NCBI RefSeq assembly: GCF_003201355.1
Contig: NZ_QICL01000013.1
Location: forward strand, 62,001 to 126,000
Direction of reading: 5' to 3'
Source of the DNA: Indolivaga alginatilytica
GTDB lineage: Bacteria; Bacteroidota; Bacteroidia; Bacteroidales; Dysgonomonadaceae
DNA length: 64,000 bases
The position numbers were made by a program, and so were the translations under genes. Below are positions 26,436 to 62,522 of this stretch, one piece after another. How positions within the stretch are numbered: the first letter of the stretch is position 1; each line of letters starts with the position of its first letter. Below the pieces are notes generated by a model, which saw only the letters and a program-made list of their open reading frames with translations, did no database searches and was not told where the DNA came from.

Positions 26436-26507
26436 ATATGTAGTTACAAGTTATAAGTTACGAGTTACAAGTCTATTTATTGAGTAATCTCTCAAAAAGA
26501 CCCGTAT

Positions 26508-27386: not shown

Positions 27387-27402
27387 GTCCTACGTTTTCT
27401 TT

Positions 27403-27471: not shown

Positions 27472-27509
27472 GGATACTCGTTTTGTATCGGTTATTATCC
27501 AACCGAGGA

Positions 27510-45800: not shown

Positions 45801-45966
45801 CTGTAGTAGAACCTTTTACTGTAACAGAAACCCCTATTAAGGTCTCTCCTTTTGAATCTGTTACTGTACCCGATATTTCCTTTCCCTGTGCATATGCACT
45901 TTGCCAAGACACGAGGAAAAAGAGGGCACACATTACAGACAAAGTCTTCATAATTGTCTTTTGCAT
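42820..45966 (-). CDS. SusC/RagA family transporter (pectin unit 2)
   Basis: A 1048-residue TonB-linked transporter. Signal (ending QSAYAQG), carboxypeptidase-like domain (about 28-105, GTVTDSKGETLIGVSVTVKG), SusC signature VVVIGYGTMKKNDLTGSVGS, plug with GPLYVVDGVVTDGIDFLNPA and STAIFGSRATNGVVMVTTKQ, and a barrel ending in QFGVNLKF. It is first in a second transcription unit: upstream is a box shared with two other promoters of the locus. Its N-terminus is very like that of the SusC at 57 kb, suggesting an old duplication. Confidence 0.96.
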   Translation of the reverse strand: MQKTIMKTLSVMCALFFLVSWQSAYAQGKEISGTVTDSKGETLIGVSVTVKGSTTGTITDLDGKYSLSVPGTSKTLEAKYIGMQTQEIPITGAVVNIVMREDFSQLDEVVVIGYGTMKKNDLTGSVGSVSSDNLVARGATSVLESLQGQVAGVNISQNSSRAGGRFDIQIRGKSSMLGGGPLYVVDGVVTDGIDFLNPADIERLDVLKDASSTAIFGSRATNGVVMVTTKQGKPSDTGKVSITYDGFYGSKNVARMPEFMNGDEFSDYRFARYNTMTSDQLKNAYATGIPQYAITSGDLNNFWNGSEVMKKKFRTKDYTNWPDLITQNGQQQNHFISINGNNRNLAYRIGVGYQDEDGVFVNDNYKRYNIKGSVDNKINDKFSVGFSANMAMTEKDFGSNNAVLNSFRTNPYFIPYDKNGDLVLLPGGKDIFKGSGQFSGIINPLIDLQNADDNTKAYDVLANVYVQYNPVKEITIKSNFLPTYNKSRHGIYNGVNTAAQFAAGVNAAEVTNEERFTYTWDNQVNYQKTIGDHDFNGMYLFSIYDNSYNKDYTKVRGIPFETSFHNLESAANIEKVLSDFQRITMLSHALRFNYTYKSKYLATVTSRWDGSSKFAKGHKWGMFPSMALAWRASEEDFMKFDALSNLKVRASFGYTGNNGGVGPYDTQALAKQKYWYDYGGMAVNGYGPNGLVYTNLSWEKSREFNFGLDYGFFGGRINGTIDYYNKLSSDVIYKRTMPLETGALGGVMWDNVGKIRNSGIELALTTMNIVTKDLQWSTTFVFAANKNEIVELYGAKVDDRGNKLFIGESLDALYNYKITGVWTAAEAAEAAKYGQYEGQTKVLDRDGNYVIDEKDKMILGSALPDWTGSVTSNLSWKDFDFSFSIYTKQGVNVLSPFMVEFTDYKDRGRNKLKMDYYIPAGAAILNADGTVGISTGHNSQAYPYPNNSGINNGGGRFWSISSDAEAGANNYVDASFIKVQNITFGYTLPRKLLSNIGVSNLRLYVNVLNPFVFTDYKGFDPEWAAASISDGSGGPSSVTYQFGVNLKF

Positions 45967-46025: not shown

Positions 46026-46090
46026 CAATAGTAAAGTATATTTACCAGTTTCACGGGGGACATTTTGACTACTCAGGGTAGTCAAAATGT
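46026..46090 (-). promoter_or_regulatory. susC promoter (unit 2) with shared GTCAAAATnTCCCCC box
   Basis: On the minus strand GTCAAAATGTCCCCC (46069-46055) is followed after exactly 21 bp by the -7 element TACTATTG (46033-46026). The box overlaps a perfect 13-bp inverted repeat, ACATTTTGACTAC (46060-46072) and GTAGTCAAAATGT (46078-46090), with a 5-nt loop. The palindrome might also end transcription of the GH105 gene. The same box and spacing occur at 57409-57452 and 62376-62419. Confidence 0.7.
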
Positions 46091-46100
46091 TTTTTCTTCT

Positions 46101-47273
46101 TTATTTACCTAATAATAAACTCAACATAATAAATGGTCCAACCGCTTTAGGGTCATTATCCCTTATTGGTTCTAAGATGTAATACTCGAAACTTCCGTCA
46201 CGATATACCTTTTCTCCGCCCAATCCCGCTACCGAACAACCGTCGGTTATAGAAATTGTTCCATCGGCTTCTTTCTTCAAAAATCGCTTGACAAATTGAT
46301 TATATGCTTTTTTTCCTTTCTGAGTATATGATTTGTCCAGATAACCTTTCTGTGCACCTTTAACCCATGTATATATAAACATGGCGGAACCACTCGATTC
46401 TATATAATTACCTTTTCTGTAACCCATATCGGTCACCTGATACCACATACCTGTCTTAGGGTCTCTGTATTTCTCTACAGCAGCACTTACATTTCTCAAT
46501 ATTTGTATTATTTCGGGTCTTTTCGGATGATCTTCCGGTAGGTAATCCAAAACATCCACGATTGCCATCACATACCACCCTATACTGCGTGACCAGAAAT
46601 TTGGAGACAGTCCTGTTTCTTTGTTTGCCCATCTCTGTTCGCGACTTTCGTCCCATCCATGATAATATAATCCCGTTTTTGAATCATACAGATATTTATG
46701 TGCATCCAATATCTGCAAGGTAACCTCATCAAATAACTCGGGCTCATTAAATACTTTTCCATATTCAGCCAGAAACGGACAAGCCATATAAAGACCATCC
46801 AGCCACACCTGATGTGGATATATCTTTTTATGCCAGAAACTTCCATCTGCTGTACGTGGATGAGTTTTCATCTGGTTACGTAACAAAGTCATGGCCTTTG
46901 CGAAACGCTCCTCTTTTGTTTTTGCATAGATAGGGAATAGTATCTTTCCGGTATTTACCCTGTCGATATTATATTCTAAGGGTTTGTATGTCTTGATTTG
47001 TCCATCTTCGGAGATCATCAGATCCGCATAAGAATAGGCATAATCAAAATATTCCTGATTGTTTGTTTTTTGCCAGGTTTGAAGTATTGCTTGCAGCATT
47101 AAACCATGACAGTAGTTCCATTTTGGCTCTTTCGAGAAATCAAGCATCCATGATTCGGGATTCCTCTTTATTTCAGAATCAACCATCCATACCGAATAAG
47201 GCTTCTTCGCAAAAGCCGATCCACTACAAATAGTTGCAAACAGAATAATAAATATCAAAAATTGTTTTTTCAT
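46101..47273 (-). CDS. Unsaturated rhamnogalacturonyl hydrolase (GH105)
   Basis: A 390-residue secreted enzyme (signal ending GSAFA). The alpha/alpha barrel has LDFSKEPKWNYCHGLMLQAI (about 44-63), the catalytic Asp in HQVWLDGLYMACPFLA (about 154-169), WSRSIGWYVMAIVDVLDYLP and SSGSAMFIYTWVKGA. GH105 removes the unsaturated uronate left at the non-reducing end by pectin lyases. It is the last gene of pectin unit 1, after PL1. The next downstream gene (susC of unit 2) has its own promoter. Confidence 0.93.
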   Translation of the reverse strand: MKKQFLIFIILFATICSGSAFAKKPYSVWMVDSEIKRNPESWMLDFSKEPKWNYCHGLMLQAILQTWQKTNNQEYFDYAYSYADLMISEDGQIKTYKPLEYNIDRVNTGKILFPIYAKTKEERFAKAMTLLRNQMKTHPRTADGSFWHKKIYPHQVWLDGLYMACPFLAEYGKVFNEPELFDEVTLQILDAHKYLYDSKTGLYYHGWDESREQRWANKETGLSPNFWSRSIGWYVMAIVDVLDYLPEDHPKRPEIIQILRNVSAAVEKYRDPKTGMWYQVTDMGYRKGNYIESSGSAMFIYTWVKGAQKGYLDKSYTQKGKKAYNQFVKRFLKKEADGTISITDGCSVAGLGGEKVYRDGSFEYYILEPIRDNDPKAVGPFIMLSLLLGK

Positions 47274-47383
47274 GATTCTTTTGATTTGTTAGGTAAACAA
47301 CAGCAAATATTTGAATATTAGCCCCATGTAAGAACTAATAGATGTATTGCAATTACAGAATAATAAAGTCTTATGTCTTAGCC

Positions 47384-48766
47384 TTATTCCATTATATTTT
47401 CAACTAAACTATTCAGATAGACTTCAAGATAGGTATATCCTTCTGAATTAAGCTCAGCTGCTGTTTTATTAGGATAGTTGGCTTCTAACCATCCATCGGG
47501 AATTCCGTCTCCGTTAGAGTCTAAAACTACATCTTGAGAATTGAAGCTGTACACTTCCCATCCACCAACATCGTTTTGAGAATCAATCATTCCGGGTCTA
47601 GTTTTACTATCACGGGAAGCTCTCACTGGAGTCAAACCATCTCTTACTTCGGTTATGATACGTGCATCCGTTTTATCCCTTTTGTAGCTGGCTCCGCTTT
47701 TTGCTAATACTTTTGTAAAAGCTGTTTCAGCATCATCGGTTTCAACAGAAGATACTTCAAATGGTACTAACGATATAAGTTCTTCTTTATTTTTAGTTGA
47801 AGGATTTGGTTGAAAGCCAAGTATATTATTTTCGGTTGTCACTTCATCATTATATATATAATTTCCGGCTAGGTAAAATTGCCCCCAGACACCTTGAGCT
47901 TGTTTATTGGCTCCTTCATCAGCATTGGGTGAAAATATTCTGTTAGGATGAGAAGATGTTGCCGATGCCTTGTAATAATTATTCACAAAGTTGTATCTGC
48001 CTCCTTCCCCTGCATATCCGCTATTGCTCCCCCAGTTGTAGATTACATTATTTCTGAAATCTACCAGTTCCAATTCGGGAGTCGCAGTATAACGACTTCC
48101 ACACATCCGAGGATTGCGGCTATCATGGTGTGCCAATAGGTTGTGATGAAAAGATGCTTTTTGGCCACCCCATATTCCGCCATAACCATGGCTTCCTTTT
48201 CGGTGAACAGACGCTCTCAGGCTTTCAGATAAGATAGACCATTGTAGGGTGAAATTTTCGTTATCATAAAAAGACCCACACTCATCGGTACTCCAACTTA
48301 AGGAGCAATGATCTATAATAATATTTTTATTCTTATTACCTGACAAAGCATCATCTTCAACGCCAGATAAATCGCCCATTCTAAAGCGAATAAAGCGAAT
48401 GATAACATTATCGCCTGTTATCTTTACCGGATAATTAGCAATACAAATACCATCACCGGGCGCACTTTGCCCGGCAATGGTTGTATTCGATAGAATATTT
48501 AATTTCGATTTCAGATGAATCACTCCTGCAACCTTAAACAAGATAACCTTCGGTTCTTCTCCTTTGAGACACCAGCGAAGGCTACCTTCTCTCGTGTTTT
48601 TATTCCCGACAACTGTGTCTTGTAAGGTATTTACATAATAAACATTCCCTCCACGTCCTCCAGTAGTGTACATTCCTCCTCCTTCAGCCCCCGGAAAAGC
48701 CGGAGTCTGGGCTTGAATGGTACAACAAAGCAATATCCAACACAAAAACAATAGTATTTTTTTCAT
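47384..48766 (-). CDS. Pectate lyase family 1
   Basis: A 460-residue secreted beta-helix enzyme (signal ending TIQAQ). PL1 features are FPGAEGGGMYTTGGRGGNVY (about 24-43), VIIRFIRFRMGDLSGVEDDA with Ca-binding acids, IIIDHCSLSWSTDEC (about 150-164), and the catalytic-Arg region HHDSRNPRMCGSRY (about 212-225). It ends with a dockerin-like segment (DSNGDGIPDGWLEANYPNKT). It cleaves polygalacturonate by elimination, giving products for GH105 next to it. It is transcribed between GH28 and GH105. Confidence 0.94.
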   Translation of the reverse strand: MKKILLFLCWILLCCTIQAQTPAFPGAEGGGMYTTGGRGGNVYYVNTLQDTVVGNKNTREGSLRWCLKGEEPKVILFKVAGVIHLKSKLNILSNTTIAGQSAPGDGICIANYPVKITGDNVIIRFIRFRMGDLSGVEDDALSGNKNKNIIIDHCSLSWSTDECGSFYDNENFTLQWSILSESLRASVHRKGSHGYGGIWGGQKASFHHNLLAHHDSRNPRMCGSRYTATPELELVDFRNNVIYNWGSNSGYAGEGGRYNFVNNYYKASATSSHPNRIFSPNADEGANKQAQGVWGQFYLAGNYIYNDEVTTENNILGFQPNPSTKNKEELISLVPFEVSSVETDDAETAFTKVLAKSGASYKRDKTDARIITEVRDGLTPVRASRDSKTRPGMIDSQNDVGGWEVYSFNSQDVVLDSNGDGIPDGWLEANYPNKTAAELNSEGYTYLEVYLNSLVENIME

Positions 48767-48800
48767 TATCCTTTGTTTTAAGATTGTAGAGTTATATTAT

Positions 48801-50438
48801 CTATTCTTTAGTAATATTCTCTGGCTTAAGACTCTTAGGCAACTTTATATTCTCGGTAAGTTTACCTGTGATTTTCACAACTTCTTTCAATGAATTCGGA
48901 TATCTCAATCCTGTAGCATCCATGTTTCTTACATTATTCAAGATTAGTGCAGGTCCTTCTTTAGCTATTATCTTCACATCCTTAAATGTGATACCATCCG
49001 ATTCAGATAACTCACCTCCATAAGTTGCAGTTATAGTTGTATTCTCTAGATTAATATTTGTTATATTCATCTCGGGCAAGCCATTGAAATACATCGCACG
49101 CCTTGCATTTCTTGAAGTTAAATTCTTCACATATATGTTTCTGAATACAGGGGTAGTCTCATCTACTTCATAAACAATATTATCTGCCGGTGTTTCGTCT
49201 CCATCTTCTAATGCTTCGGATGCCGATTTGCCTCCATAATACAGATCGAACAGGAATGATTCGGTAGCTATATCGAACATGTTTATATTGCTGACGTAAA
49301 TATTCTCTACAACACCTCCTCTTCCTCTACGGCTCTTAAATCTTAAGCCAACATCTGTTCCTAAAAACTGACAGTTCGAAACCGATATATTACGGACACC
49401 TCCCGACATTTCGCTTCCTACAACAAAACCGCCATGCCCTTGAAATACTTTACAGTTATCAATAATTACATTTTCGGTAGGTAATCCACGACGACGTCCA
49501 TCCTCATCTTTTCCGGATTTGATACAGATTGCATCGTCACCCACATCGAAGGTACTATTTATTATAATAGAATTTGTGCATGATTCTAAGTCCAGTCCAT
49601 CTCCATTCTGAGAATAGCCCGGATTACGAACAAATACATTATCTACAATCACATTCTTACACATCAATGGGTGTATATTCCAACTCGGAGAATTTTCGAA
49701 AAGAACTCCTTCGAGTAAAACATTTTCGCATTCGATAAAACTAACCATTACCGGACGCAAAAAGTCTTTTACTGAATCCCATTCTTCATCAGATAAATCG
49801 CCTTTAGGAACATTCATGTCACTCATGTCGTTCCCTTTTAGAGAACCTTTTGTCGGAAACCAATAATTACCATCTTTAACAACTCCGCCCGACTTCACGA
49901 CTCTTTGCCAATGGCTATCAGTCACTTTACTTTTCTTCAAAGGTCTCCAAGTATCACCAGAACCATTTATAGAACCTTCACCTGTAATAGCAATATTCTT
50001 CAAATTACGACCAGAGATAGGAGACTGGCAACGACGAGTATCAAGCCCTTCGAATACTGTATGTACCAATGGATACAAATTGAAGTCCGACGAAAATAGT
50101 ATTAAAGCTCCCTTTTCGAGATGCAGATTTATATTCGACTGAAAAACAATAGGACCTGTATACCAAATACCCGAAGGCACAGTAAGGGTTCCTCCTCCTT
50201 TTTTAGATAAAGCGTCTATCGCTTTCGCAAAAGCTTCAGTATTTAAAGTCGCACCATCGGGTACTCCTCCGAAATCTGTGATTGACAAATTATTTGCTGG
50301 AAATACAGGACGATCCAAGATCGGCATTTCGAAGGGTAAATCCTTATACAAATAAGTATATCTGTCACCGGCATTAAGTAAACCCGATACCGGAAGACAA
50401 ACAGTCAGGATAAATACAATCTTTTTAAATGTGTTCAT
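48801..50438 (-). CDS. Glycoside hydrolase family 28 enzyme (second copy)
   Basis: A 545-residue secreted GH28 (signal ending GLLNAG). Motifs: NGDG in SQNGDGLDLESC, GDD in FDVGDDAICIKSGKDEDG, GHGG in VFQGHGGFVVGSEMSGG and RFK in VGLRFKSRRGRGG. It differs from the GH28 at 38.5 kb by a segment of about 60 residues before the helix (residues 165-225, NYWFPTKGSLKGNDMSDMN). This suggests a different product or branch preference. It is the first enzyme gene after the DUF4957/5123 lipoprotein. Confidence 0.95.
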   Translation of the reverse strand: MNTFKKIVFILTVCLPVSGLLNAGDRYTYLYKDLPFEMPILDRPVFPANNLSITDFGGVPDGATLNTEAFAKAIDALSKKGGGTLTVPSGIWYTGPIVFQSNINLHLEKGALILFSSDFNLYPLVHTVFEGLDTRRCQSPISGRNLKNIAITGEGSINGSGDTWRPLKKSKVTDSHWQRVVKSGGVVKDGNYWFPTKGSLKGNDMSDMNVPKGDLSDEEWDSVKDFLRPVMVSFIECENVLLEGVLFENSPSWNIHPLMCKNVIVDNVFVRNPGYSQNGDGLDLESCTNSIIINSTFDVGDDAICIKSGKDEDGRRRGLPTENVIIDNCKVFQGHGGFVVGSEMSGGVRNISVSNCQFLGTDVGLRFKSRRGRGGVVENIYVSNINMFDIATESFLFDLYYGGKSASEALEDGDETPADNIVYEVDETTPVFRNIYVKNLTSRNARRAMYFNGLPEMNITNINLENTTITATYGGELSESDGITFKDVKIIAKEGPALILNNVRNMDATGLRYPNSLKEVVKITGKLTENIKLPKSLKPENITKE

Positions 50439-50458
50439 TCTTTTTCTATTTTAATAAA

Positions 50459-50513
50459 GGAAGTAAGATTACAGACTATACCTATTTGTTTTACAGCTAC
50501 AATTCTTACTTCC
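50459..50513 (-). terminator. Possible hairpin before the second GH28 gene
   Basis: GGAAGTAAGATT (50459-50470) pairs with AATTCTTACTTCC (50501-50513) with one bulge and a 30-nt loop. It lies between the surface lipoprotein gene and GH28 and could lower read-through into the enzyme genes, like the hairpin at 41082. Confidence 0.45.
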
Positions 50514-50547
50514 CCTATCTTAATTTATAATTAGCTCTTTATTTCAC

Positions 50548-52161
50548 TTACCACCAACGAGGATCTCCCGGTTGTTTATCGCCACCTATACTAGTATCCT
50601 TAATCTTGAAATTACCAGTTGAAGGATCAGTAAATAAATTGGCAGAAGTATTATTATAATCTGATACGCCAGTCAACGGATAACCCGAAGCAACTGTATA
50701 ATCGGTTGTTTTGTATGAATCAAAAACAAACGTATCTTCTAACTTGGGGTTGGTTGCACGTGTAGAAATTGAAGCATCTGAAGCAGCAAATAAACAATCG
50801 TTTATACCCAACCGGCTTGCCATATTAGCAGCTTTACCATCAAAGTTTATAATATATTTATCTTTTGCCTGTGCGTCATAGAATGTACAGTGACTAATGC
50901 TTACTAATGCAGGTTTCGATTTACAGGTAATAACATTTGTATTATTCAACTTAGACACAGTACTGTTTTTCAAGCTAATATCTCCTACCGATACAGAAGT
51001 CGCATCAATAGATACAAGACCATAACTTCCAATATTGCTGATTATACAGTTGTCTATATCAATCAGTCCCACTGTTAATGCTGCACGCATGCGGATAATT
51101 CCTCTAAATGAATCTATAATACAATTATCCATCTTAAATTCAGAGATTGATCTTGCAGTAGTCGGATTATCATTTAATACATAGTCAGCCGCAGCATCAG
51201 TTCCCGAAACCTTCATGTTATGTATCCAGATTTTAAAGTTTGAAACCGAATTATCCAGCTTTATTTCTTTAAAGTTAATGGACGCTTGTCCTTCTCCGGC
51301 TAGTCCCCATAATGTAAGAGACTTGATATGTGCAGGAAGTGTCCAAGCATCACCTATCTCAAATTTTGCGGTAGTAGGGATTACCAGTACGACCTCAGTA
51401 TCTTTTATAGTATTTAAGAACTCAACAATATTCTCAGTTCCTTTTAGGACATATTGCTTTCCATCACCCGATATTTTTTGAGCAGTAGTAAATGTTTTTA
51501 CTCCCTTCCTTTTCTCTCCGTTATAAATTTCAATACTATATAGTGTATTCTGTTTCAGGTCTTTTAATTCGAGTCTACTCTCAGCTATCTCTGACGCTGA
51601 TAATCTAATCTCTTTCTTATTAAAACCTCCTCCTGATAACAAAATATGAGTTACTTCCGATTCTGCTTCCCATGTTATAGTTGCCGAACTTTCTGTAATA
51701 TCACTTACTGCATTGAGAATCTGCTCTCCGGGAGTCTTAAAAGTCAAAGCTACCCATCTTGACTCCGGCAAGTTTTTATTCGAAGTCACTTTCATACGAA
51801 CAGAGTATCTGATCTCAGGATCAAGCTTTTTTACTGTAATCATGAATAACTGTGAAACAAATGTGGAATCGAGAACAATACTGTCAGCCGGTATTTCAAT
51901 AGTATTAGTTATTGTCTTGAACTCTAAACTGTCTTTACTAAATTCCATAACATACGCCCCCGCGTTAGACACATTCGAGAATACTAGATCGACAGATGTA
52001 GCTCCGATTCTGGATGTTTCGAAAGTTACAGGACTGAATACCCTATTATAGCTGTCATCTGTTCCCCAATCATTCACATCCTCGCAAGATGTAAAACAAA
52101 CTGCAAGTCCTAAAATTAACAGACCGCTTAATATATATTTAAATAAAAAGTTCTTTCTCAT
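50548..52161 (-). CDS. DUF4957/DUF5123 surface lipoprotein (SusE-position)
   Basis: The start at 52161 gives a lipoprotein signal (MRKNFLFKYILSGLLILGLA, then CFTSCEDVND). A frame extending to 52224 would overlap susD and is not favoured. The 537-residue protein has two fibronectin-type domains (about 35-240, ARIGATSVDLVFSNVSNAG-like strands). A right-handed beta-helix part follows, with DUF4957 at about 260-400 (VVLVIPTTAKFEIGDAWTLP) and DUF5123 to the end (SISHCTFYDAQAKDKYIINF). It occupies the SusE/F place after susD, so binding of pectic chains at the surface is likely; a catalytic role is not shown. Confidence 0.85.
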   Translation of the reverse strand: MRKNFLFKYILSGLLILGLAVCFTSCEDVNDWGTDDSYNRVFSPVTFETSRIGATSVDLVFSNVSNAGAYVMEFSKDSLEFKTITNTIEIPADSIVLDSTFVSQLFMITVKKLDPEIRYSVRMKVTSNKNLPESRWVALTFKTPGEQILNAVSDITESSATITWEAESEVTHILLSGGGFNKKEIRLSASEIAESRLELKDLKQNTLYSIEIYNGEKRKGVKTFTTAQKISGDGKQYVLKGTENIVEFLNTIKDTEVVLVIPTTAKFEIGDAWTLPAHIKSLTLWGLAGEGQASINFKEIKLDNSVSNFKIWIHNMKVSGTDAAADYVLNDNPTTARSISEFKMDNCIIDSFRGIIRMRAALTVGLIDIDNCIISNIGSYGLVSIDATSVSVGDISLKNSTVSKLNNTNVITCKSKPALVSISHCTFYDAQAKDKYIINFDGKAANMASRLGINDCLFAASDASISTRATNPKLEDTFVFDSYKTTDYTVASGYPLTGVSDYNNTSANLFTDPSTGNFKIKDTSIGGDKQPGDPRWW

Positions 52162-52180
52162 TCTGTTTATTTTTAATGGG

Positions 52181-54097
52181 TTAATAGCCATAAGAATTTG
52201 TAACAATTCCTTGGTAATCTCCAATCACACTACTATGAATAGGGTATAAATAACGGTTAACACATACACCGTTATAATCTTTGAAAAGTCCTGAGCTAAA
52301 TAGCTGGATTCTTTCGTTATAGATTCTTTTATTCTCTTCCGAGAATCCCGACATCCACTTCACCTTAGTATATCCTCGAGCCTTCAATTGATTGTCATCT
52401 AAAGCCTCTAACTCCGCATTTACCACATAATAACTTGTACTGTCTTTATCGATATTTTCCTTATCGGCTTTGTATTTATAGAATAAATTTTGAGGCAGTG
52501 ATGAATACTTTTTATCAAACACCTCCACAGCTGCACCACTAATCATATCTTGAAATGCTTTGCGCTGCTCTAAGATTTTTTTCTCTAACAGATTCCAACG
52601 AATAAGGTCAAATTTGCGAATCGCTTCTCCTCCAAATTCCCATGCACGCTCATTTATAAGTGCATTAAAAAATTGTTCTTTCGATGATAAATTGCTCACA
52701 TAATCCGCTACATTCTTGGACTCATTTTTGGTTCCGGCAAACGCTCGGGCACGTACTTCTTTCAAAGCATTTTTGGCTGCGTCCGTAGGTCCGTTTAGCT
52801 CATTTTCTGTTTCGGCGAACATCAATAAAACATCAGCATATCTCATATTGATCCAGTTTACACCGTATCCCCATTTTCCATTTGCTTCCTTATTCTGATC
52901 CAGCCATTTTGTATTTTCAGCCATCCAGCGTTGATCCCATTTTGCAAAGTTGTACGAAAGGGGATTACTTTGGAATACCTCTTTCTGATCGCCACTTGCA
53001 TTACTATATGCTATAGTAGTAATAGTAGCATCTCTACGAGGGTCTTCCGGTTCGAAAGAATAGTAATAATAAGCACTTGTATTTACAACATTCGAGTTAT
53101 TACCATATCCATATTTGGTATTAGTATAAAATCTCACACCAATACTATACCCTATTTCTCCACTCTGGCTTAATCCCAGTGCAACTTCATAAAGGTTCTC
53201 TCCATTAAGACCATCAGCCTTCAATGCACACACATCTTTCCAAATATCTACATAGCTGGATTTCAGTCTGTATTTTCCTACATTCATTATCTCCAGACAC
53301 TGAGTACGTGCTATCTTATAATATTCAAGATAATCTGATCTTCTTTCTGTCGGATATCCGGGTTTATCTCTCAAAGAGTAGCCACCTCTGGTCAATGCTA
53401 TACGGGCAATCAAACCTTTGACGAAACCTTTACTGATTCTTTCTGCAGTCGAATAAGATACCGAACCGGCACTCTCTCCAACCCAAGGGACATCTTTCTC
53501 TATTGACAAAAGTTCGGTTATTAAATACTCACAGATTGAATCTCTATCGGTTTTAGGCAGATATACATTCGATAAGTCATTTTTGGTTGGTTCTGTTTTA
53601 AAAGGAACATCGCCCCAGTGTTTAACCAGTTCATAATAACCCATAGCCCTCAAAGTCTTGGCTTCTCCAAGCAAGGTTTTCATTGCGGCTTGGTCTTTAT
53701 CTGTTCCCAACATCAAAGGGCTGTTTTCGATGCCTTGAATCACTAAATTAGAACGTTCGATCATTTGATAGATTCTCGTCCAAATAAGTGTTGCATTTCC
53801 TGAGGTCGCATAATAATTTGAAGCTCCCCTATTTGTATTCTGATTGTAACTCGACTCATCAGCACCTACAAATTCTATATCATTATTGGTACTCCAGTTT
53901 ATCGATAAACGTTGTGCATACATCTGTGCATCAGCTATACGGTCATAAATACCTTTCACTGCAGATTCGGTGTAATAGACAGAAGTATATATCGTTTCGT
54001 CTGTCATCTTCGAATCACTGCTTGTTTCCAGAAAATCGCTACAAGATGAAAACACCAACGAAAAAGCTGCTATGTATATATATATTAGTTTTCTCAT
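52181..54097 (-). CDS. RagB/SusD family outer membrane lipoprotein (pectin unit 1)
   Basis: A 638-residue SusD with lipobox LVFSSCSDFLETSSDS. Family pieces are LGEAKTLRAMGYYELVKHWG (about 145-164), NMRYADVLLMFAETENELNG (about 425-444) and NERAWEFGGEAIRKFDLIRW (about 485-504). The extra length over the unit-2 SusD is mostly in the C-terminal third. It lies 12 bp after its SusC and 19 bp before the DUF4957/5123 lipoprotein gene. Confidence 0.95.
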   Translation of the reverse strand: MRKLIYIYIAAFSLVFSSCSDFLETSSDSKMTDETIYTSVYYTESAVKGIYDRIADAQMYAQRLSINWSTNNDIEFVGADESSYNQNTNRGASNYYATSGNATLIWTRIYQMIERSNLVIQGIENSPLMLGTDKDQAAMKTLLGEAKTLRAMGYYELVKHWGDVPFKTEPTKNDLSNVYLPKTDRDSICEYLITELLSIEKDVPWVGESAGSVSYSTAERISKGFVKGLIARIALTRGGYSLRDKPGYPTERRSDYLEYYKIARTQCLEIMNVGKYRLKSSYVDIWKDVCALKADGLNGENLYEVALGLSQSGEIGYSIGVRFYTNTKYGYGNNSNVVNTSAYYYYSFEPEDPRRDATITTIAYSNASGDQKEVFQSNPLSYNFAKWDQRWMAENTKWLDQNKEANGKWGYGVNWINMRYADVLLMFAETENELNGPTDAAKNALKEVRARAFAGTKNESKNVADYVSNLSSKEQFFNALINERAWEFGGEAIRKFDLIRWNLLEKKILEQRKAFQDMISGAAVEVFDKKYSSLPQNLFYKYKADKENIDKDSTSYYVVNAELEALDDNQLKARGYTKVKWMSGFSEENKRIYNERIQLFSSGLFKDYNGVCVNRYLYPIHSSVIGDYQGIVTNSYGY

Positions 54098-54109
54098 TAT
54101 ACTTATTTT

Positions 54110-57100
54110 TTAGAATGTTATGTTTATACCACCTACAATAGTCTTGGCTTTAGGGTATGCCGAATAATCTACACCCGGAGTAAATGGGTTTTCTTTGCTA
54201 GATCGGGTACTAACCTCAGGATCCGGCCCCGAATAGTTTGTCCAACAATATAGATTATAACCTGTGGCATATATACGCAGTGATTCTATCAGCCATTTTT
54301 TAGTCATCTTTTTGGGTAATGTATAACCAACTGTCAAATTATTTAGTCGTAAGAAAGACCCGTCCTCAATTGCCCATGAATGAAGAGTGGTAGTGGTCAT
54401 CATAGGATGCCAAATTGTTTTACCGGAATTAAGCTCCTGTAAAAGAGCAGGATTGGCATTCTTTCCCGAATAAATATTATTTCCGGTTGAAGGATCAATC
54501 GTAGTAAAACGATTTTTAAAAGCCATAATCGATGATAAATTCTGATTTTTACGAGTTAATAAATATGAAGTATTATCCAGTTTATTAGCATTATAAATAT
54601 CATTTCCGTATGACCAATTGAAGAATACAGAAGCATCAAATCCTTTATAAGTAGAATTAAATCCAAAACCTCCCGTATGTTTAGGAAGAGCATTTCCTAT
54701 AACCTTTCTATCATTTTCTGTTATTTTATCAGTACCGTCATCAGCTATTTTCTTAAACTTCAATGCTCCGGGTCCAAAGTAACTGCCATTACTAATTAAG
54801 GCACTATTATCGGCAACACCTTCATTAATAACCCATACATTTTTGCTTTGATCCCATGTAAAATCGTCAAAACTATACATTCCGTCAGTAACATAGCCAT
54901 ACATTTGACCAAGAGGACTTCCTTCTTCAACCAGATAATCATACACCGGTTCTGCCGAACCGTTCCAGCCCGAACCGTATAATTTAGATTTAGTATTACC
55001 ATTCGAGAACTTATCAACCTTGTTTTTATTGAATGCAATATTGAATGTTCCCGATAGAGTAAAGTCTTTATTATCTATGATATAAGCATTCATTGAAAAC
55101 TCAAGACCTCTGTTAGATGTTTGTCCGATATTTTGGTATTGTCCGTCATATCCCGATGTTGTTGGGATTGGAGACCTTACAATCAGATTTCTAGTAATAT
55201 TGTTGTATAAATCGATCGAACCTGATATTCTGTTTTTTAATATTCCAAAATCAATACCGAAGTTGCTCGAGTAAGTAGTCTCCCAAGTCAATCTATTACT
55301 CTTTAGAGTAGCCGATGGGGTTAATATACTTGTCGCCTTTTCATTTGGGTAGAAAACACTAGAGCTTGAAGAAGTATATTCTTGTCTCCAAGGCGGATCG
55401 ACACGTGCATTACCTACAGTACCATAACTCAATCTAACTTTTAGATTATCTAACCATGAATTTTGAGTACGAAGAAACTCTTCTTCAGATGCTCTCCACG
55501 CCAGTGCTCCCCCGGGAAAGAATCCCCAATATAGACCCGGACCAAATACACTGGTACCGTCTTGACGTGCAGTAAAAGTCATCAAATATTTATCCTTCAG
55601 GTTGTAGTTAACACGACCAAAGAAAGAAGACATTCTTAGAGGTTCTCCAAGGCTGGTTATTATTGGTTCGGCTTGACCATTACCCATCGCAGCCAATACC
55701 TCTCTCGCCGAAAAATCTACGGGGAAATATCTTGCCTCCACTAATTTTCTATTCATCACTCTTTCGCTAAGCTCCTGCCCTGCCAAAACATCAAATTGAT
55801 GGATTTTATTCAGATTGAAATTATAAGATAGTGTATTAATTAAACGCCAATCATGACCTTTATCATCTGTTATTCTGGCTACAGGCTGTCCTGCATACGT
55901 TTTAGAGACACCCGTTCCGCTTGTCCAAACATTATCCGTATTATTTTTCAAAAACGCATAACTAAAGGTACTCGAGAATCTCAGCTTCTTTATAATATCC
56001 CAATTAACACCTGCTATATAGGTATTATTGAATTTGTTTACTTTCTTATATTCATTAGTAATATCGTCAACCGGATTATTCAATGTACTATTAATTCCCG
56101 CCTGATCATCGTCATCACTATTAGAAGAGTCTAATCCGTAGAGTCCTCTGGTTGGACTATATTTTACTGCATTACGTAACTTTGTATTAGAGCCTGAACC
56201 TGCTGAGACACTAGGTCCAGTGATAACCTCATTCGTAACACGGACATTAAAATTCATACTCAGATTATCTTTTATCTGACTGCTTACTTTAAAGTTTACA
56301 TTATCGCGCTTATAGCCTGAATTTATCATAATATAATCTTCATCGTTACGAGTAAGACTTAAGCTATACAAAGCCGCTTTACTCCCCCCTGACACACCAA
56401 CATTATAATATTGTTGTGTACCTGTATTGCCAAATACCTTATCTTGCCAATCGATTCCGGGGTCAGATTTGTATATATCCAGATCTTGAAATCGTCCATA
56501 CAGCTTCTGAAAAGAAGACGTCTGATCTAATTCATGTTGATAGTATACGTACTCGTAAGGGCTAAGAACTTCAATAAAATCCCTAGTCTTTTTTGCTCCG
56601 TAAGAAGCATTGAATGTGACAGATATTTTTCCTTCACGCCCACTTTTTGTTGTGATAAGAATAACACCATTTGATCCCAGTGCTCCGTAAATAGCAGTTG
56701 AAGCAGCATCCTTCAATACATCTATTGAAGCAATGTCGGAAGGAGGAATATCTGTTATACTATTTACTATGATTCCGTCAACCACATACAGCGGTGCGTT
56801 ATCTTGAGAGATAGAAGTACCACCACGTACACGGATACGTATATCGGCATCGGGAGATCCTTCTGTAGCTACAACACTTACCCCTGCCAAACGACCGGTA
56901 AGAGCTTCAGCAGCCGAAGCAATAGGTAAATCCTTCAATGATTTTTCGGAAATAGAAGCAACAGATCCTGTCAGATCTCTCTTCTTTACTGTTCCATAAC
57001 CGATAACCACAACCTCATCCAGTTCCGAGTGATTATCTTCCATAACTATATCAACAACTGCACCTGCAATAGGTACTTCTTTTGATATCATCCCGATATA

Positions 57101-57337
57101 AGAGGCCACAAGAGTTTTTGCCCCCGTAGCTACAGAAAGAGTGTACTTTCCGTCAAGATCGGTAATTGTACCTGTGCTTACGCCTTTTACAGCAACAGAA
57201 ACACCAATTAATGCTTCTCCTTTGGTATCTGTTACCGTACCGCTTACCATCTTCTGTTGAGCATATAGATTTTGCCCGTATAGAAAACAGAACAGAGTAC
57301 AAACCAGAACCAAAATTTTAATACTTGTTTTTTGCAT
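54110..57337 (-). CDS. SusC/RagA family transporter (pectin unit 1)
   Basis: A 1075-residue TonB-linked transporter: signal (ending QNLYAQQ), carboxypeptidase-like domain (GTVTDTKGEALIGVSVAVKG), signature VVVIGYGTVKKRDLTGSVAS, plug with APLYVVDGIIVNSITDIPPS and STAIYGALGSNGVILITTKS, and a barrel ending PKAKTIVGGINITF. It leads pectin unit 1 and is transcribed divergently from the HTCS gene across a 402-bp gap that holds a shared operator-like box. Confidence 0.96.
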   Translation of the reverse strand: MQKTSIKILVLVCTLFCFLYGQNLYAQQKMVSGTVTDTKGEALIGVSVAVKGVSTGTITDLDGKYTLSVATGAKTLVASYIGMISKEVPIAGAVVDIVMEDNHSELDEVVVIGYGTVKKRDLTGSVASISEKSLKDLPIASAAEALTGRLAGVSVVATEGSPDADIRIRVRGGTSISQDNAPLYVVDGIIVNSITDIPPSDIASIDVLKDAASTAIYGALGSNGVILITTKSGREGKISVTFNASYGAKKTRDFIEVLSPYEYVYYQHELDQTSSFQKLYGRFQDLDIYKSDPGIDWQDKVFGNTGTQQYYNVGVSGGSKAALYSLSLTRNDEDYIMINSGYKRDNVNFKVSSQIKDNLSMNFNVRVTNEVITGPSVSAGSGSNTKLRNAVKYSPTRGLYGLDSSNSDDDDQAGINSTLNNPVDDITNEYKKVNKFNNTYIAGVNWDIIKKLRFSSTFSYAFLKNNTDNVWTSGTGVSKTYAGQPVARITDDKGHDWRLINTLSYNFNLNKIHQFDVLAGQELSERVMNRKLVEARYFPVDFSAREVLAAMGNGQAEPIITSLGEPLRMSSFFGRVNYNLKDKYLMTFTARQDGTSVFGPGLYWGFFPGGALAWRASEEEFLRTQNSWLDNLKVRLSYGTVGNARVDPPWRQEYTSSSSSVFYPNEKATSILTPSATLKSNRLTWETTYSSNFGIDFGILKNRISGSIDLYNNITRNLIVRSPIPTTSGYDGQYQNIGQTSNRGLEFSMNAYIIDNKDFTLSGTFNIAFNKNKVDKFSNGNTKSKLYGSGWNGSAEPVYDYLVEEGSPLGQMYGYVTDGMYSFDDFTWDQSKNVWVINEGVADNSALISNGSYFGPGALKFKKIADDGTDKITENDRKVIGNALPKHTGGFGFNSTYKGFDASVFFNWSYGNDIYNANKLDNTSYLLTRKNQNLSSIMAFKNRFTTIDPSTGNNIYSGKNANPALLQELNSGKTIWHPMMTTTTLHSWAIEDGSFLRLNNLTVGYTLPKKMTKKWLIESLRIYATGYNLYCWTNYSGPDPEVSTRSSKENPFTPGVDYSAYPKAKTIVGGINITF

Positions 57338-57408
57338 GGTTATTCAAATATGTTTAATTAGGTTAACACTTTAGTTTAGATTAACAGTTAAGTAGTTCGA
57401 TTCAACTG

Positions 57409-57470
57409 CAATGTTAATTTATATTATTTACGAACACAGGGGAGATTTTGACTAGAACAGGTAGTAAATC
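57409..57470 (-). promoter_or_regulatory. susC promoter (unit 1) with shared GTCAAAATnTCCCC box
   Basis: On the minus strand GTCAAAATCTCCCCT (57452-57438) is followed after exactly 21 bp by TAACATTG (57416-57409). ACTACCTGT lies just upstream, and its CCTGT recurs 21 bp later inside CCCCTGTG, giving phased half-sites. The wider match to the site at 46026-46090 includes ACTACC, TAGTCAAAAT and CCCC(C/T)GTG. The rest of the 57338-57739 gap contains the HTCS promoter and G-rich stretches (GGTCAACAAAATAGGGGG at 57621) that may be weaker copies. Confidence 0.7.
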
Positions 57471-57710
57471 TGATATCCACCTACAAAAGCACAAGAATAG
57501 ACTATTAGAATAATTGAGAAGAAACACTTTCACGCATAATATAAAAATGCCTAAATAGACAGTCAGATCGCCTTTTACACAACATTATAAGAGAACTACT
57601 TTTTTGAATCCATCAAAAAAGGTCAACAAAATAGGGGGACAAATATTCTTACAAACGGGGTCAAATTGATTTATTAACTGAGCTACTCGCACTTTTTCGA
57701 GAAACAAAGT

Positions 57711-57718
57711 TATATTTG
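57711..57718 (+). promoter_or_regulatory. HTCS gene promoter -7 element
   Basis: TATATTTG, an exact TAnnTTTG match, lies 21 bp before the HTCS start codon. No shared box is found at the 21-bp distance, suggesting constitutive expression of the regulator. Confidence 0.45.
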
Positions 57719-57739
57719 TGAATAGTCTATACCAATCAA

Positions 57740-60700
57740 ATGATAAACCTACGTTTTCTTTCGTTGATCTTCTTTTTTACGATCAACATAGCCTTATTCT
57801 CTCAGCCAAAATGTTATTTCGAACATTATGGAGCAGATGACGGACTTCCTCAGCATACCGTTATGGATATTCTTCAGGATAAGAAAGGCTTTATGTGGTT
57901 TTCTACTTGGGATGGGCTCAGCAAATTTGATGGCTATAAGTTCTATACCTATAAGATTCAGGCAGGGGATGCATATCACATGAGAAGTAACCGTATCGAT
58001 TACATCTACGAAGATCAATATGGTTATATTTGGACACTGTCTTACGACAGAGAGGCACATCGATTCGATCCTAAAACTGAACGATTTATGGGAATCAGGT
58101 CTTTGGATAAATACAAAGATTTCAATTTTACAACCACATCAATTCTTCCCATGCCATCGGGCAAAGTATGGTTACTCTCCGAAAGGATGGGATGCGTTTC
58201 TATCACGGGTTCTGCCTTTGAGGTTCAATTATTTAATATCCAGAATAAGAGCATACAAGCCAATCAGGTATATAGTATTCATGAAGATAAAAACAAAACA
58301 TCGTGGTTACTAACAGATAATGGGCTATACAGTGTTTCGGAGGATGGCAAAATAATCAGCAGCCATTTTGCGGAAAAAGAATATAACGAAAACAGACCCA
58401 TGCAGAGTTTCTACTCAGCTATGGAGCTTAATAATCAAATTTGGTTTGGCTCGGATGACGGACGAATATGGATTTACAATAAAAAAGACGGGCAATTCAG
58501 TCTATTCGAAACACATTCCCCTTCAAGAATAAAACAATTAGAAAACATTGATAACAATCAGATCTTAATAGCCACAAATAGCGATGGCTTTTTCATATAC
58601 GATTCTAAAAAAGAAGATCTCAAAAAATTTACGACAAAGAATTTGCCGGCTATGCCTGTCAATGATATAGTATCATGCTATATAGACAAATCAAATAATA
58701 TATGGTTCGAATTAAACTATCAGGGAGTATCACGATTCGACATTAAAACTCAGACAATAAAACATCTGGCTACAAAAACTGAGAATTTCAGTTCAATTGT
58801 CTTTCCTCCCAATTTTTTCATCTTTGAAGACAATGAGAATCGCATTTGGGTACATCCTCGAGGGGGTGGATTTGCATTGTATGACCCTATAAAAGAAGCA
58901 TTAGTGCCTTTTTATAACGAACCGTCTTCTCCAACATGGCGATTTTCGGACATGCTTCATGCAGGGTTTTCTGACAAGCAAGGGAATCTCTGGTTGAGTA
59001 CCCGATCTCATGGTTTGGAAAAGATTATTTTCAACAACGACGTGTTCAAATCGACTATTGTAGATAAAAACACACACTCGACCATAAATAATGATGTACG
59101 CTGTATTTTTGAGGACAGCAACCAAAATTTATGGGTATCAGCTAAAGGAGGAAGAATCTTTGTCTATGATTCAACCCGTACACAAATAGGTTATTTGTGT
59201 GAAAATGGAAAAATCGAGTACGGAGAACCTATTGACGGCATATGCTATGCTATGCTCGAAGACGACCAAAAAAACTTATGGGTAGGTACTAAGGGCGAAG
59301 GCATATACAAACTAACACCCATAAAAGGTTCTAAACAATATAAAATAACTCAATACAAGAACTCTCCGACAGACCTTTACAGCCTTAGTAACAATAGTAT
59401 ATATAGCATCTTTCAGGATGTAAAGAAACGAATATGGGTCGGGACATATGGAGGAGGGCTCAATCTGATTGACCCCAATGAGGAGGGACGATTTATAAAT
59501 TATAAAAACAATCTGAAAAACTACCCAAATCAGCTTGGCTATCAGATTCGAATAATCTCATCGGATAAATATGGTAACATATGCGTCGGAACAACCTTCG
59601 GGCTTATTATGTTTTCGCCTAATTTCGAATCGGTTAGCTCTATTGATTACAAATCATTCAGCAGAATACCTAACGATAATAATAGCCTAAGTGGAAACGA
59701 TATATATGACATTTGTACTACTAAAACAGGAGAGACATATCTGGCTACATTTGGGGGTGGACTTAATAAAATAATAAAAGTAAATGAGAATGGTTTTCCA
59801 GAGCAATTTGTATCTTTCACAGCTAAAAATGGATTACCCTCCGATGTTATTCTGTCTATTACCGAAGACTACAGAGGTAAGTTATGGATTACAACAGAAG
59901 GAAATCTGACAAAATTTGATCCCGTTAAAACATCATTCGAAACATATAGTGAAATCAATCGACTCATTGAAGGACAAAATTTTTCGGAAGGAGCTCGCTG
60001 CGAGGCTAAATCAGGAATCATATATTTTGGCTTTTCAAAGGGTTTTATCTCCATAAACCCAGATAAGATCAACGATAATACCTTTAAACCCTATGTAGCA
60101 CTTACAAACTTACAGATATCGAACAAGAGTCAATCCATAGGAGAGGATTCTCCTTTGGATATCAACATCGACGATGCTAAACATCTGGTTTTAAACCACA
60201 AACAGAATTTTATAAGTATAGAGTTTGCTGCCTTAGATTATATTGAACCTAAGCGAATTATGTATGCATATAAACTGGATGGTTTTGACGAAGATTGGAT
60301 AATAACAAAAGATCAACGCATAGCCAACTATACAAACTTGTCGCCCGGTGAATACACATTCCGGGTAAAATCGACTAACAGTGATGGAATATGGACTGAC
60401 AATGAGCATGTTTTAGAAATAAAGATTACACCTTCTTTCTGGCAAACAGGCTGGGCTTATTTCCTATATTTTGTTCTATTTACAGCAGCTCTTTTTATCA
60501 TTTTACGAGCCATTTTTCTTTATTACCGTCTAAGAGACAAAGTAAAATTAGAGCAAGAACAGACGGAAATGAAGACCCGTTTTTTCACCGATATTTCGCA
60601 CGAAATACGCACTCCCCTTACTATGATTGTATCTCCCGTCGAAAATATCATTGAAGACAAAAAGACGCCTTCGGAAGTGAAAACCCAACTTCAATTGGTA

Positions 60701-62170
60701 TTAAAAAATGCCAATAGGATGCTCGATATGGTAAATCAGATTCTCGATTTCAGAAAGATACAAAAGAAAAAGCTCAACATCCAACAAACAAACATAGGTT
60801 CCTATATAGTATCTATTTGCGATAATTTCTATGAAGCTGCAGCCGAACAAAAGATAAAACTAAATGTAGAGAACAAGGCCGGTGACACCAAAATATGGGT
60901 AGATAGAGACAGTATTGAAAAACTCATGTTCAATCTGCTTTCGAATGCTTTAAAACACACTCCTGCTGGTAAAAACATCGACATACTTATTTCCGATGTA
61001 TCTAAAGACAACACCGTATTACTTCAAGTAAAAGATGAAGGCAGAGGAATGACTAGAGACATTCTCAATAAACTGTTTACTCGTTTTGCCTCCTTCAATC
61101 TTGATAAAAATAAACCAAGTACGGGTATCGGCTTATCCATTGTAAAAGAAGTGGTAGACAAACATCACGCTGGTATTTCGGTTTCGAGTGAAGTTGATAA
61201 AGGCACTTGTTTTACAATTAAATTCTTGACAGGCATACAACACTTCGAAAACGAGGACAATATAATCTGTGTATATAATGAGGTTGAGAAAGAGCAAGCA
61301 CCAATCTCTTCCGATAAAAATACGGAAGAAAATAACAGTAACCATACAATTGAATTAACCGAACAACCACCACAAAGAGAGACGGTACTTATAGTAGAAG
61401 ACGACTCCGATCTGAGACAGTTTATAAAAACTATCTTAGAGGCTCATTATGATATACTGGAAGCCGCTAACGGAAAAGAAGGTTATGATAGCGCAATAAC
61501 CAATCTACCCGAATTTATACTCAGTGATATCATGATGCCTGAAATAGACGGTGTAGAATTACTCCAAAACATTAGAAAAAATGCAGAAACCAGTCATATC
61601 CCCTTTATATTACTTACAGCAAAAACTGATATTGAGAGTAAATTATCGGGACTCGATTATGGTGCAGACGACTACATAACAAAGCCTTTCAGTGTAAAAT
61701 ACCTCAGAGCGAGAATCGATAATATAATAGAACAACGTAAAAGGCTATACGAATTTTATTCAATAGGAAAACAGTCTTCTACCTCTAGTTCTGCTTTACC
61801 TTCAGAGAAATTAGAGACCGAACATCAAATCACTCAACAAGATGAGTTGTTCATCAAAAAAATTAAAGAGATTATTGAAAAAAATATAGATAACAGCGAT
61901 TTTTTTATAGACAACCTTGTAGCCGAATTAGCTATGAGCCGCACTGTTTTCTTTAAAAAGCTAAAGAGTCTTACAGGCCTTGCCCCTGTCGAATTTATTC
62001 GAGATATTAAAATTAAGTATGCAGCACGCCTGATAGAATCTCAACAATATACTATAAAAGAAGTATCTTTTATGATCGGAATATCCGACACTAAATATTT
62101 CACCCAATGTTTCAAAAAAATATTCAATATGACCCCGAGCGAATATAAGAATATAAAAAAAGACTTGTAA
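57740..62170 (+). CDS. Hybrid two-component system regulator (HTCS) of the pectin locus
   Basis: A single 1476-residue protein with all HTCS parts. A signal peptide (ending ALFSQ) precedes the periplasmic propeller (about 25-780, GFMWFSTWDGLSKFDGYKFY, KNLWVGTKGEGIYKL). A Y_Y_Y domain (about 815-897) is followed by a membrane helix (about 905-927). The histidine kinase has the phosphorylated His954 (DISHEIRTPLTM), N-box FNLLSNALKHTP and G-boxes DEGRGM and STGIGLSIV. The receiver (about 1215-1330) has Asp1263 (LSDIMMPEIDG). The AraC DNA-binding domain is at about 1370-1476. It senses an oligosaccharide in the periplasm and should activate the two divergent pectin units and the DUF4861 gene. Confidence 0.97.
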   Translation: MINLRFLSLIFFFTINIALFSQPKCYFEHYGADDGLPQHTVMDILQDKKGFMWFSTWDGLSKFDGYKFYTYKIQAGDAYHMRSNRIDYIYEDQYGYIWTLSYDREAHRFDPKTERFMGIRSLDKYKDFNFTTTSILPMPSGKVWLLSERMGCVSITGSAFEVQLFNIQNKSIQANQVYSIHEDKNKTSWLLTDNGLYSVSEDGKIISSHFAEKEYNENRPMQSFYSAMELNNQIWFGSDDGRIWIYNKKDGQFSLFETHSPSRIKQLENIDNNQILIATNSDGFFIYDSKKEDLKKFTTKNLPAMPVNDIVSCYIDKSNNIWFELNYQGVSRFDIKTQTIKHLATKTENFSSIVFPPNFFIFEDNENRIWVHPRGGGFALYDPIKEALVPFYNEPSSPTWRFSDMLHAGFSDKQGNLWLSTRSHGLEKIIFNNDVFKSTIVDKNTHSTINNDVRCIFEDSNQNLWVSAKGGRIFVYDSTRTQIGYLCENGKIEYGEPIDGICYAMLEDDQKNLWVGTKGEGIYKLTPIKGSKQYKITQYKNSPTDLYSLSNNSIYSIFQDVKKRIWVGTYGGGLNLIDPNEEGRFINYKNNLKNYPNQLGYQIRIISSDKYGNICVGTTFGLIMFSPNFESVSSIDYKSFSRIPNDNNSLSGNDIYDICTTKTGETYLATFGGGLNKIIKVNENGFPEQFVSFTAKNGLPSDVILSITEDYRGKLWITTEGNLTKFDPVKTSFETYSEINRLIEGQNFSEGARCEAKSGIIYFGFSKGFISINPDKINDNTFKPYVALTNLQISNKSQSIGEDSPLDINIDDAKHLVLNHKQNFISIEFAALDYIEPKRIMYAYKLDGFDEDWIITKDQRIANYTNLSPGEYTFRVKSTNSDGIWTDNEHVLEIKITPSFWQTGWAYFLYFVLFTAALFIILRAIFLYYRLRDKVKLEQEQTEMKTRFFTDISHEIRTPLTMIVSPVENIIEDKKTPSEVKTQLQLVLKNANRMLDMVNQILDFRKIQKKKLNIQQTNIGSYIVSICDNFYEAAAEQKIKLNVENKAGDTKIWVDRDSIEKLMFNLLSNALKHTPAGKNIDILISDVSKDNTVLLQVKDEGRGMTRDILNKLFTRFASFNLDKNKPSTGIGLSIVKEVVDKHHAGISVSSEVDKGTCFTIKFLTGIQHFENEDNIICVYNEVEKEQAPISSDKNTEENNSNHTIELTEQPPQRETVLIVEDDSDLRQFIKTILEAHYDILEAANGKEGYDSAITNLPEFILSDIMMPEIDGVELLQNIRKNAETSHIPFILLTAKTDIESKLSGLDYGADDYITKPFSVKYLRARIDNIIEQRKRLYEFYSIGKQSSTSSSALPSEKLETEHQITQQDELFIKKIKEIIEKNIDNSDFFIDNLVAELAMSRTVFFKKLKSLTGLAPVEFIRDIKIKYAARLIESQQYTIKEVSFMIGISDTKYFTQCFKKIFNMTPSEYKNIKKDL

Positions 62171-62375
62171 AACGGCTCAATTCGCTTATACTTAAGTAAT
62201 TTTTCTTACTTTCGTCAAATTATTTCTCTATTACACTGAAAAACATCGTCCCTTTAGCCGAGTATAGATAAATACTTAATGAGATATTATTCAACTATAA
62301 TAGTCATTGTATTTATGTTTATCAGAGCAACAAGAGACTTTGACGCCTTAAATCTACGGGGTATAATTAATCAAA

Positions 62376-62419
62376 GTCAAAATATCCCCCATATACCAAA
62401 AGGCTCATTTATATATTTG
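62376..62419 (+). promoter_or_regulatory. Promoter with shared GTCAAAATnTCCCCC box upstream of DUF4861 gene
   Basis: GTCAAAATATCCCCC (62376-62390) is followed after exactly 21 bp by TATATTTG (62412-62419), the same arrangement as the two susC promoters. It would give a leader of about 150 nt to the DUF4861 gene at 62576. Confidence 0.65.
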
Positions 62420-62456: not shown

Positions 62457-62522
62457 AGGTCAAAAAATGCATGAACAAGGTCAAAAATGACATTATCTTA
62501 TAGTTGAGTTATTCTACCTTTG
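62457..62522 (+). promoter_or_regulatory. Second promoter with phased AGGTCAAAAA repeats
   Basis: AGGTCAAAAAATG (62457-62469) and AGGTCAAAAATG (62478-62489) start 21 bp apart. A -7 element TACCTTTG follows at 62515-62522, 35 bp from the start of the second GTCAAAA, against 36 bp in the three GTCAAAATnTCCCCC promoters. It may be a weaker site for the same regulator, or a site for a different one. Nothing else is seen in 62171-62575. Confidence 0.5.

Follow-up and report, generated by a model that had tools for sequence, protein, structure and literature searches.

What controls the pectin locus of Indolivaga alginatilytica? We analysed positions 62,001–126,000 of contig NZ_QICL01000013.1 (assembly GCF_003201355.1), a 64-kb stretch referred to here as the window and numbered from 1 at its own first base. 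A single box had been proposed to precede three predicted promoters in it: those of two susC genes (P1 and P2) and that of a unit comprised of a DUF4861 gene and uxaC (P3). The original prediction also named the hybrid two-component system (HTCS) regulator encoded in the locus as the candidate binder. Our analysis indicates that the box very probably belongs to a real, gene-specific operator of this HTCS. We consider it highly probable, from the sequence comparisons described below, that the box is the proximal half of a two-part operator through which the HTCS, by way of its AraC-type DNA-binding domain, would activate P1–P3. Below, labels beginning with L denote fetched loci and those beginning with G denote genomes.

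All three boxes were present and exact where they had been placed, within 16 kb of each other (Table 1). At each of P1, P2 and P3, the gap between the box and a -7 element of the TANNNTTG type was confirmed to be exactly 21 bp. Given the frequency of TANNNTTG in the window, the chance that three boxes share one common gap among 21 is ≈2e-7. With up to three mismatches allowed, the box had 14 matches in the window, compared to an average of 12 in shuffled sequences; the P1–P3 boxes had no mismatches, and the other 11 all had three. The GTCAA and CCCC motifs of the box lie about one helical turn apart, a spacing that suits the two helix-turn-helix (HTH) motifs of one AraC-type domain. The -7 consensus of the Bacteroidota primary sigma factor is given as TAnnTTTG (PMC7366714); TATATTTG at P3 fits it, and TACTATTG at P1 and TAACATTG at P2 are each one base off. 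By eye, no TTTG was seen at the -33 position of P1, P2 or P3. The predicted site abuts -33 at a fixed distance from -7, with gaps of 21 bp at P1–P3 and 20–22 bp at 16 intergenic sites in the family. The sequence supports this as the geometry required for class II activation by an AraC-type protein, and it agrees with the proposed placement of the site next to a missing -33 element.

The box is rare in the 5.12-Mb genome. The exact 13-base consensus occurs four times, compared to 0.13 expected from the composition of the window, and three of these copies lie within 16 kb in the pectin locus; the fourth (C2:261900) is within an open reading frame (ORF) and has no -7 element. At up to one mismatch there were nine matches, the four exact copies and five others, compared to three for the backwards pattern used as a control. 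One of the five, C14:113930, has TATATTTG 21 bp further on, lies inside a long ORF and was taken to be a chance match. Another is the intergenic GTCAAATTATCCCC (L009 1501–1514, minus strand), followed by TACTTTTG after a gap of 30 bp, and the remaining three had no TANNNTTG in the stretch checked. The original prediction had held that numerous matches elsewhere in the genome, distant from uronate genes, would speak against it; this was not the case, as the relaxed box with a -7 element at the searched spacing was confined to P1–P3, apart from one match in a long ORF. As a separate observation, the L009 site precedes a large ORF whose product resembles a methylmalonyl-CoA mutase by eye.

The same genes are marked in relatives. 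A strict pattern (box, 20–24 bp, TANNNTTG) was searched in 298 genomes and gave 12 matches in six of them, with one match for the backwards control. In all 12 cases, the best HTCS match of the respective genome was no more than 12 kb away, and the next gene was susC in six, DUF4861 in five and uxaC itself in one (G035). With a relaxed pattern, the six genomes of the genus had 17 matches (control, two), 16 of which are promoters of DUF4861, uxaC, susC or GH28, including that of the susC1 orthologue on a separate contig of G002; the 17th is the C14:113930 match. In 101 genomes of the family, a similar relaxed pattern gave 33 matches (control, one), 28 of them before the same four kinds of genes. 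These 33 comprised the 12 strict matches and 21 loci (L191–L211) that were inspected. Sixteen of the 21 are intergenic, upstream of DUF4861 (12), SusC (3) or GH28 (1), with gaps of 20–22 bp. The other five fall within ORFs encoding 150 aa or more, with gaps of 17 bp (four) or 23 bp (one), at loci that match none of ten query proteins from the window. Across 118 retrieved loci (2.46 Mb, with some genomes represented twice), 29 matches with a -7 element were found for the real consensus when up to two mismatches were allowed, compared to 0–4 for 30 permuted consensuses. We also noted that in G035 (L222 221–1799, plus strand) an inverted-type operator immediately precedes uxaC, and no DUF4861 gene intervenes.

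Which protein reads the box was addressed with 40 loci built on HTCS homologues, in which the box was scored at up to three mismatches together with a -7 element, after dropping three-mismatch matches inside ORFs. The box was present at all ten loci with a full-length HTCS identity of at least 62%, at two of five with 53–58%, and at none of the 25 with 50% or less, which include three paralogues from the organism's own genome. Because the box tracks HTCS identity in this way, accompanying close homologues and being absent beside distant ones, the HTCS of the window is very probably its binder, in agreement with the original prediction. In G003, G004 and G042, a second HTCS copy (L062, L061 and L079, respectively) has no box, while the first copy does, which argues for an association of the box with this HTCS lineage rather than with the genome. 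The HTCS gene fits the polysaccharide utilization locus (PUL) type: it encodes a single protein that runs from a periplasmic propeller sensor to the HTH, and adjoins susC/susD as well as GH28, GH88 and pectinesterase genes. The protein carries a SHIP motif at residue 1285, corresponding to the S/CHIP receiver signature described as a mark of HTCSs (PMC11253607). Judged by the HTCS, the nearest named relatives are Dysgonomonas. The second HTCS copies in L061 and L062 are preceded by pairs of C-runs at spacings of 21 and 20 bp, perhaps a diverged operator.

The box is real and gene-specific, but appears to be only the promoter-proximal half of a bipartite operator. To look for a second half, we scored 43 upstream offsets in two orientations (86 choices) against a leave-one-out matrix built from the proximal half; the near-duplicates L052 and L056 were excluded. 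For 13 sites of the DUF4861/uxaC type, the inverted orientation at -17 scored highest (z 4.6, with a mean of 4.2 bits; next best, z 2.3); all 13 scored above zero, and the inverted half was at -17 or -18 in every one. For nine sites of the susC/GH28 type, the direct orientation at -22 came out on top (z 4.1, with a mean of -0.1 bits); the class label is loose for one of these, L102, which precedes a 733-aa ORF without identification. Adding L175 as a tenth site lowered this mean from -0.12 to -1.01 bits, still the top of the 86 choices. Column-permuted matrices equalled the real maximum in 6 of 300 cases for the susC/GH28 type (ten sites) and in 1 of 300 for the DUF4861/uxaC type. The orientations are thus distinguished statistically, though poorly at P1: support is strong for a putative second half-site inverted at -17 at DUF4861/uxaC promoters and weaker for one in direct orientation at -22 at susC/GH28-type promoters. 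A direct orientation at all targets was not found, since the DUF4861/uxaC-type sites are inverted. At the distal position of P1, the susC1 orthologue in L175 has AACAATTTGACTACCC, and the DUF4861 promoters of L195 and L200, which were outside the scan, have GGGGTGAAATTG at the predicted inverted place (by eye). In G121, the halves at the DUF4861 promoter are instead in direct orientation, with GTCAAAATCACC followed by GTCAAAATTACCCC at a distance of 21 bp (L198 1530; L212 8504 and 8483; all minus strand), in a different gene neighbourhood. Pairs of C-runs 20–23 bp apart were found upstream of 15 of 32 HTCS homologues, while other spacings from 8 to 45 bp each occurred in two or fewer. The mixed half-site orientation appears to be new relative to the literature searched: no inverted or palindromic HTCS operator is described in the titles or abstract openings retrieved, and a search on the motif together with Dysgonomonas returned no paper.

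These features suggest the following mechanism. Binding of a pectin oligosaccharide by the periplasmic sensor would lead to phosphorylation of the receiver and free the DNA-binding domain. An HTCS dimer would then occupy the proximal half-site, which ends beside -33, and the distal half-site, which is direct and 22 bp upstream at susC1 and susC2 (and before GH28 in one relative), but inverted and 17–18 bp upstream at DUF4861/uxaC. The bound dimer would recruit RNA polymerase to a promoter that has a -7 but no -33 element, and one protein would serve both arrangements. That a single HTCS reads the half-site pair in two geometries, with only the proximal half fixed relative to RNA polymerase, seems to us an even call.

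Several observations weigh against this picture. L061, L062 and L064, with HTCS identities of 55–58%, have no box with a -7 element, nor does L079. The DNA-binding domains of these four box-less loci are 57–63% identical to that of the window (L079, 60%), compared to 56–98% at box-bearing loci; as these ranges overlap, loci with and without the box cannot be told apart by identity alone. In the divergent HTCS homologues, this domain is about 50% identical. Owing to the relatedness of the homologues, the conservation counts are not independent, and shared ancestry inflates the correlation. G121 has a DUF4861 site, yet the best match to the HTCS there reaches only 32% identity (the genome is 55% complete). 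At three mismatches, four matches of box plus -7 occurred at distant HTCS loci, three in ORFs and one intergenic (L137). In the half-site scan, the susC/GH28-type runner-up was -25 inverted with a z of 3.0, only four of the nine direct distal halves scored above zero, and those of P1 and its L053 orthologue were at -11.2 bits. Finally, a conserved repeat with its own TACCTTTG lies downstream of P3, nearer to the DUF4861 gene, and P3 may therefore not be the main promoter of the operon. The box, gap and -7 element claimed for P3 were all found; the original prediction had included neither this second repeat nor a partner half at any of the three promoters.

The weak direct distal halves make the two-part operator slightly less probable and slightly raise the standing of a simpler arrangement, in which a single HTCS subunit on the proximal half is enough and the distal half contributes weakly or is a relic. 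The proximal half is far better conserved, five of the nine direct distal halves score under zero, and a single AggR site can confer activation (PMC6392122). However, the distal half keeps a fixed offset across promoters, and the C-run pairs before HTCS homologues cluster at 20–23 bp; we consider this arrangement unlikely, although it is the strongest competitor. Only a little less weight falls on the possibility that the HTCS binds direct repeats alone (at P1, P2 and the repeat before its own gene) and that the inverted site at P3 belongs to another regulator with a similar half-site, for example a uronate-responsive one. The motifs predicted for 16 HTCSs in PMC3878776 are all direct repeats, P3 has an extra conserved repeat of its own, the inverted site in G035 directly precedes uxaC, and no HTCS orthologue was found to go with the DUF4861 site of G121. 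On the other hand, the proximal half of P3 has the same sequence and 21-bp gap as those of P1 and P2, the DUF4861-type sites sit just past the HTCS gene in all relatives inspected except G121, and the G121 site is itself a direct repeat. Moreover, among 16 proteins scanned with Pfam between 33.3 and 63.8 kb (one of which had no match at all), only the HTCS matched a DNA-binding domain.

Two further readings are far less probable. The boxes could be RNA hairpins or terminators at gene ends, since P1 follows GH88 and P3 follows the HTCS gene. Indeed, P1 folds at -15.9 kcal/mol (z -8.3), as does P1 of L053, and the L116 site folds at -15.2, although the L053 and L116 values were obtained without shuffles. 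P2, however, does not follow the end of a gene, the folding of P2 and P3 resembles that of shuffled sequences (z -0.25 and -0.87), the susC sites of L175 and L060 fold weakly (-3.3 to -4.9), no T-run was seen by eye, and a hairpin would leave the fixed gap to -7 unexplained. On the folding of P2, P3, L175 and L060, we rejected this explanation as barely credible. The constant distance to a -7-like element would also fit the upstream element of an alternative, extracytoplasmic function (ECF) sigma promoter. But the -7 elements agree fully or nearly so with the primary-sigma consensus (PMC7366714), the site has a second half, and exact matches of box plus spacing are limited to one locus per genome. 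Pfam scans of the genes from 31.8 to 63.8 kb revealed no sigma/anti-sigma pair, only one LuxR-type protein weakly matching Sigma70_r4_2. The ECF reading, hardly more credible than the hairpin, was rejected on these scans and on the primary-sigma-like -7 elements. The two-part HTCS operator remains our preferred reading.

Table 1. Predicted regulatory elements and principal genes of the pectin locus, in window coordinates.
Feature	Position	Strand	Remarks
P1 proximal half-site GTCAAAATGTCCCCC	46055..46069	-	before susC1; kept in L052 and L053
P1 -7 element TACTATTG	46026..46033	-	sequence match
P1 distal half-site AACATTTTGACTACCC	46076..46091	-	direct, 22 bp upstream; -11.2 bits
P2 proximal half-site GTCAAAATCTCCCCT	57438..57452	-	before susC2
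P2 -7 element TAACATTG	57409..57416	-	sequence match
P2 distal half-site ATCAGATTTACTACC	57460..57474	-	direct, 22 bp upstream; -2.4 bits
P3 proximal half-site GTCAAAATATCCCCC	62376..62390	+	before DUF4861/uxaC
P3 -7 element TATATTTG	62412..62419	+	sequence match
P3 distal half-site	62358..62371	-	inverted; reads GGGGTATAATTAAT on the plus strand
22-bp direct repeat ATCAATTTGACCCC-N8-GAATATTTGTCCCC	57635..57670	-	HTCS/susC2 divergent region; largely conserved in L052 and L053
Candidate HTCS -7 element TATATTTG	57711..57718	+	sequence match
DUF4861-leader direct repeat GGTCAAAA	62458 and 62479 (span 62458-62494)	+	21 bp apart
TACCTTTG	62515-62522	+	after the GGTCAAAA repeat, nearer the DUF4861 gene than P3
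susC1	42820..45966	-	TonB receptor plug, CarbopepD_reg_2
susD1	41143-42801	-	follows susC1
susC2	54110..57337	-	next on the same strand: susD2, DUF5123/DUF4957, GH28, PelZ-like protein, GH88
HTCS	57740..62170	+	Reg_prop, Y_Y_Y, HisKA, HATPase_c, receiver, AraC-type HTH
DUF4861 gene	62576..63829	+	followed by uxaC
uxaC (glucuronate isomerase)	from ~63902, mostly beyond window end	+	downstream of the DUF4861 gene

By Pfam scans, the pectin locus contains two susC/susD pairs, two GH28 genes, GH88, pectinesterase, GDSL esterases, GH43, the HTCS gene and the gene for the DUF4861 protein; the score of the PelZ-like protein downstream of susC2 was under the NCBIfam cut-off. Further repeats occur near the promoters. 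The repeat in the divergent region between the HTCS and susC2 genes may serve autoregulation of the HTCS, and no -7 element was seen after it by eye. At six loci (L054, L055, L057, L058, L094 and L116), a counterpart of this repeat is followed by TACATTGCA (by eye), which would give a long susC leader, and the combination may be the susC promoter itself. In the DUF4861 leader, the GGTCAAAA repeat and TACCTTTG are identical in L052 and L053, and the repeat pattern occurs once each in three of the six genus genomes and in none of the other three. The DUF4861 operon may thus have two promoters, of which that with TACCTTTG is perhaps the stronger. A perfect 13-bp inverted repeat spans the P1 box (46058–46090, minus strand).

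The window also encodes other regulators. An AraC-type regulator with DUF6597 (30518–31318, plus strand) adjoins phosphoglycerate kinase and a Bat/MoxR set; because of this setting and judged from our own window only, we consider it unlikely to bind the box. The set is a run of consecutive genes for a MoxR ATPase, DUF58, VWA/BatA, TPR and two BatD-like proteins (19226–28502, minus strand). At the border of the pectin genes, a LuxR-type (GerE) regulator (32541–33140, minus strand) precedes a hemerythrin-domain gene.

The proposed arrangement resembles known systems in part. At araBAD, AraC binds direct-repeat half-sites 21 bp apart, the proximal one abutting the promoter, and tolerates either half-site orientation; unlike the HTCS, AraC is a ligand-binding cytoplasmic dimer. 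The closest parallels described are the Bacteroides pectin regulons HTCS_Rgu-1 (BT4111/BT4124) and HTCS_Rgu-2 (BT4178/BT4182), with AraC-type HTCSs beside susC/susD and pectin-enzyme targets (PMC3878776). HTCS motifs predicted in that survey are direct repeats averaging ≈21 bp apart, about two helical turns, compared to 22 bp here, a likeness of geometry; the inverted distal half at the DUF4861/uxaC promoter sets the present case apart from these two. A chimeric HTCS has been located by chromatin immunoprecipitation sequencing at the PUL under its control (PMC3404733). The distance to the promoter is similar to that at Escherichia coli promoters of the AggR type, where the site of this AraC-family activator works best 22 bp before -10 and spacings of 21–23 bp are in use (PMC6392122). 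AggR, as described there, uses a single site, whereas for the pectin locus we predict a bipartite site and a -7 promoter, with a regulator that is phosphorylated and bound to the membrane.

In gut Bacteroidota, HTCSs are regulators of major importance for glycan use, and the operators predicted in the motif survey are direct repeats only (PMC3878776). Dysgonomonas and its close relatives offer a sharply defined operator set, with a fixed distance to the polymerase and a natural contrast between direct and inverted half-sites, which makes the engagement of DNA by a membrane-tethered AraC-type dimer testable. If one HTCS does read both geometries, G121 would represent a natural geometry switch at one promoter. 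Geometry could then tune the strength or threshold of activation, and one signal would elicit different responses from the transport genes and from the uronate genes that act inside the cell.

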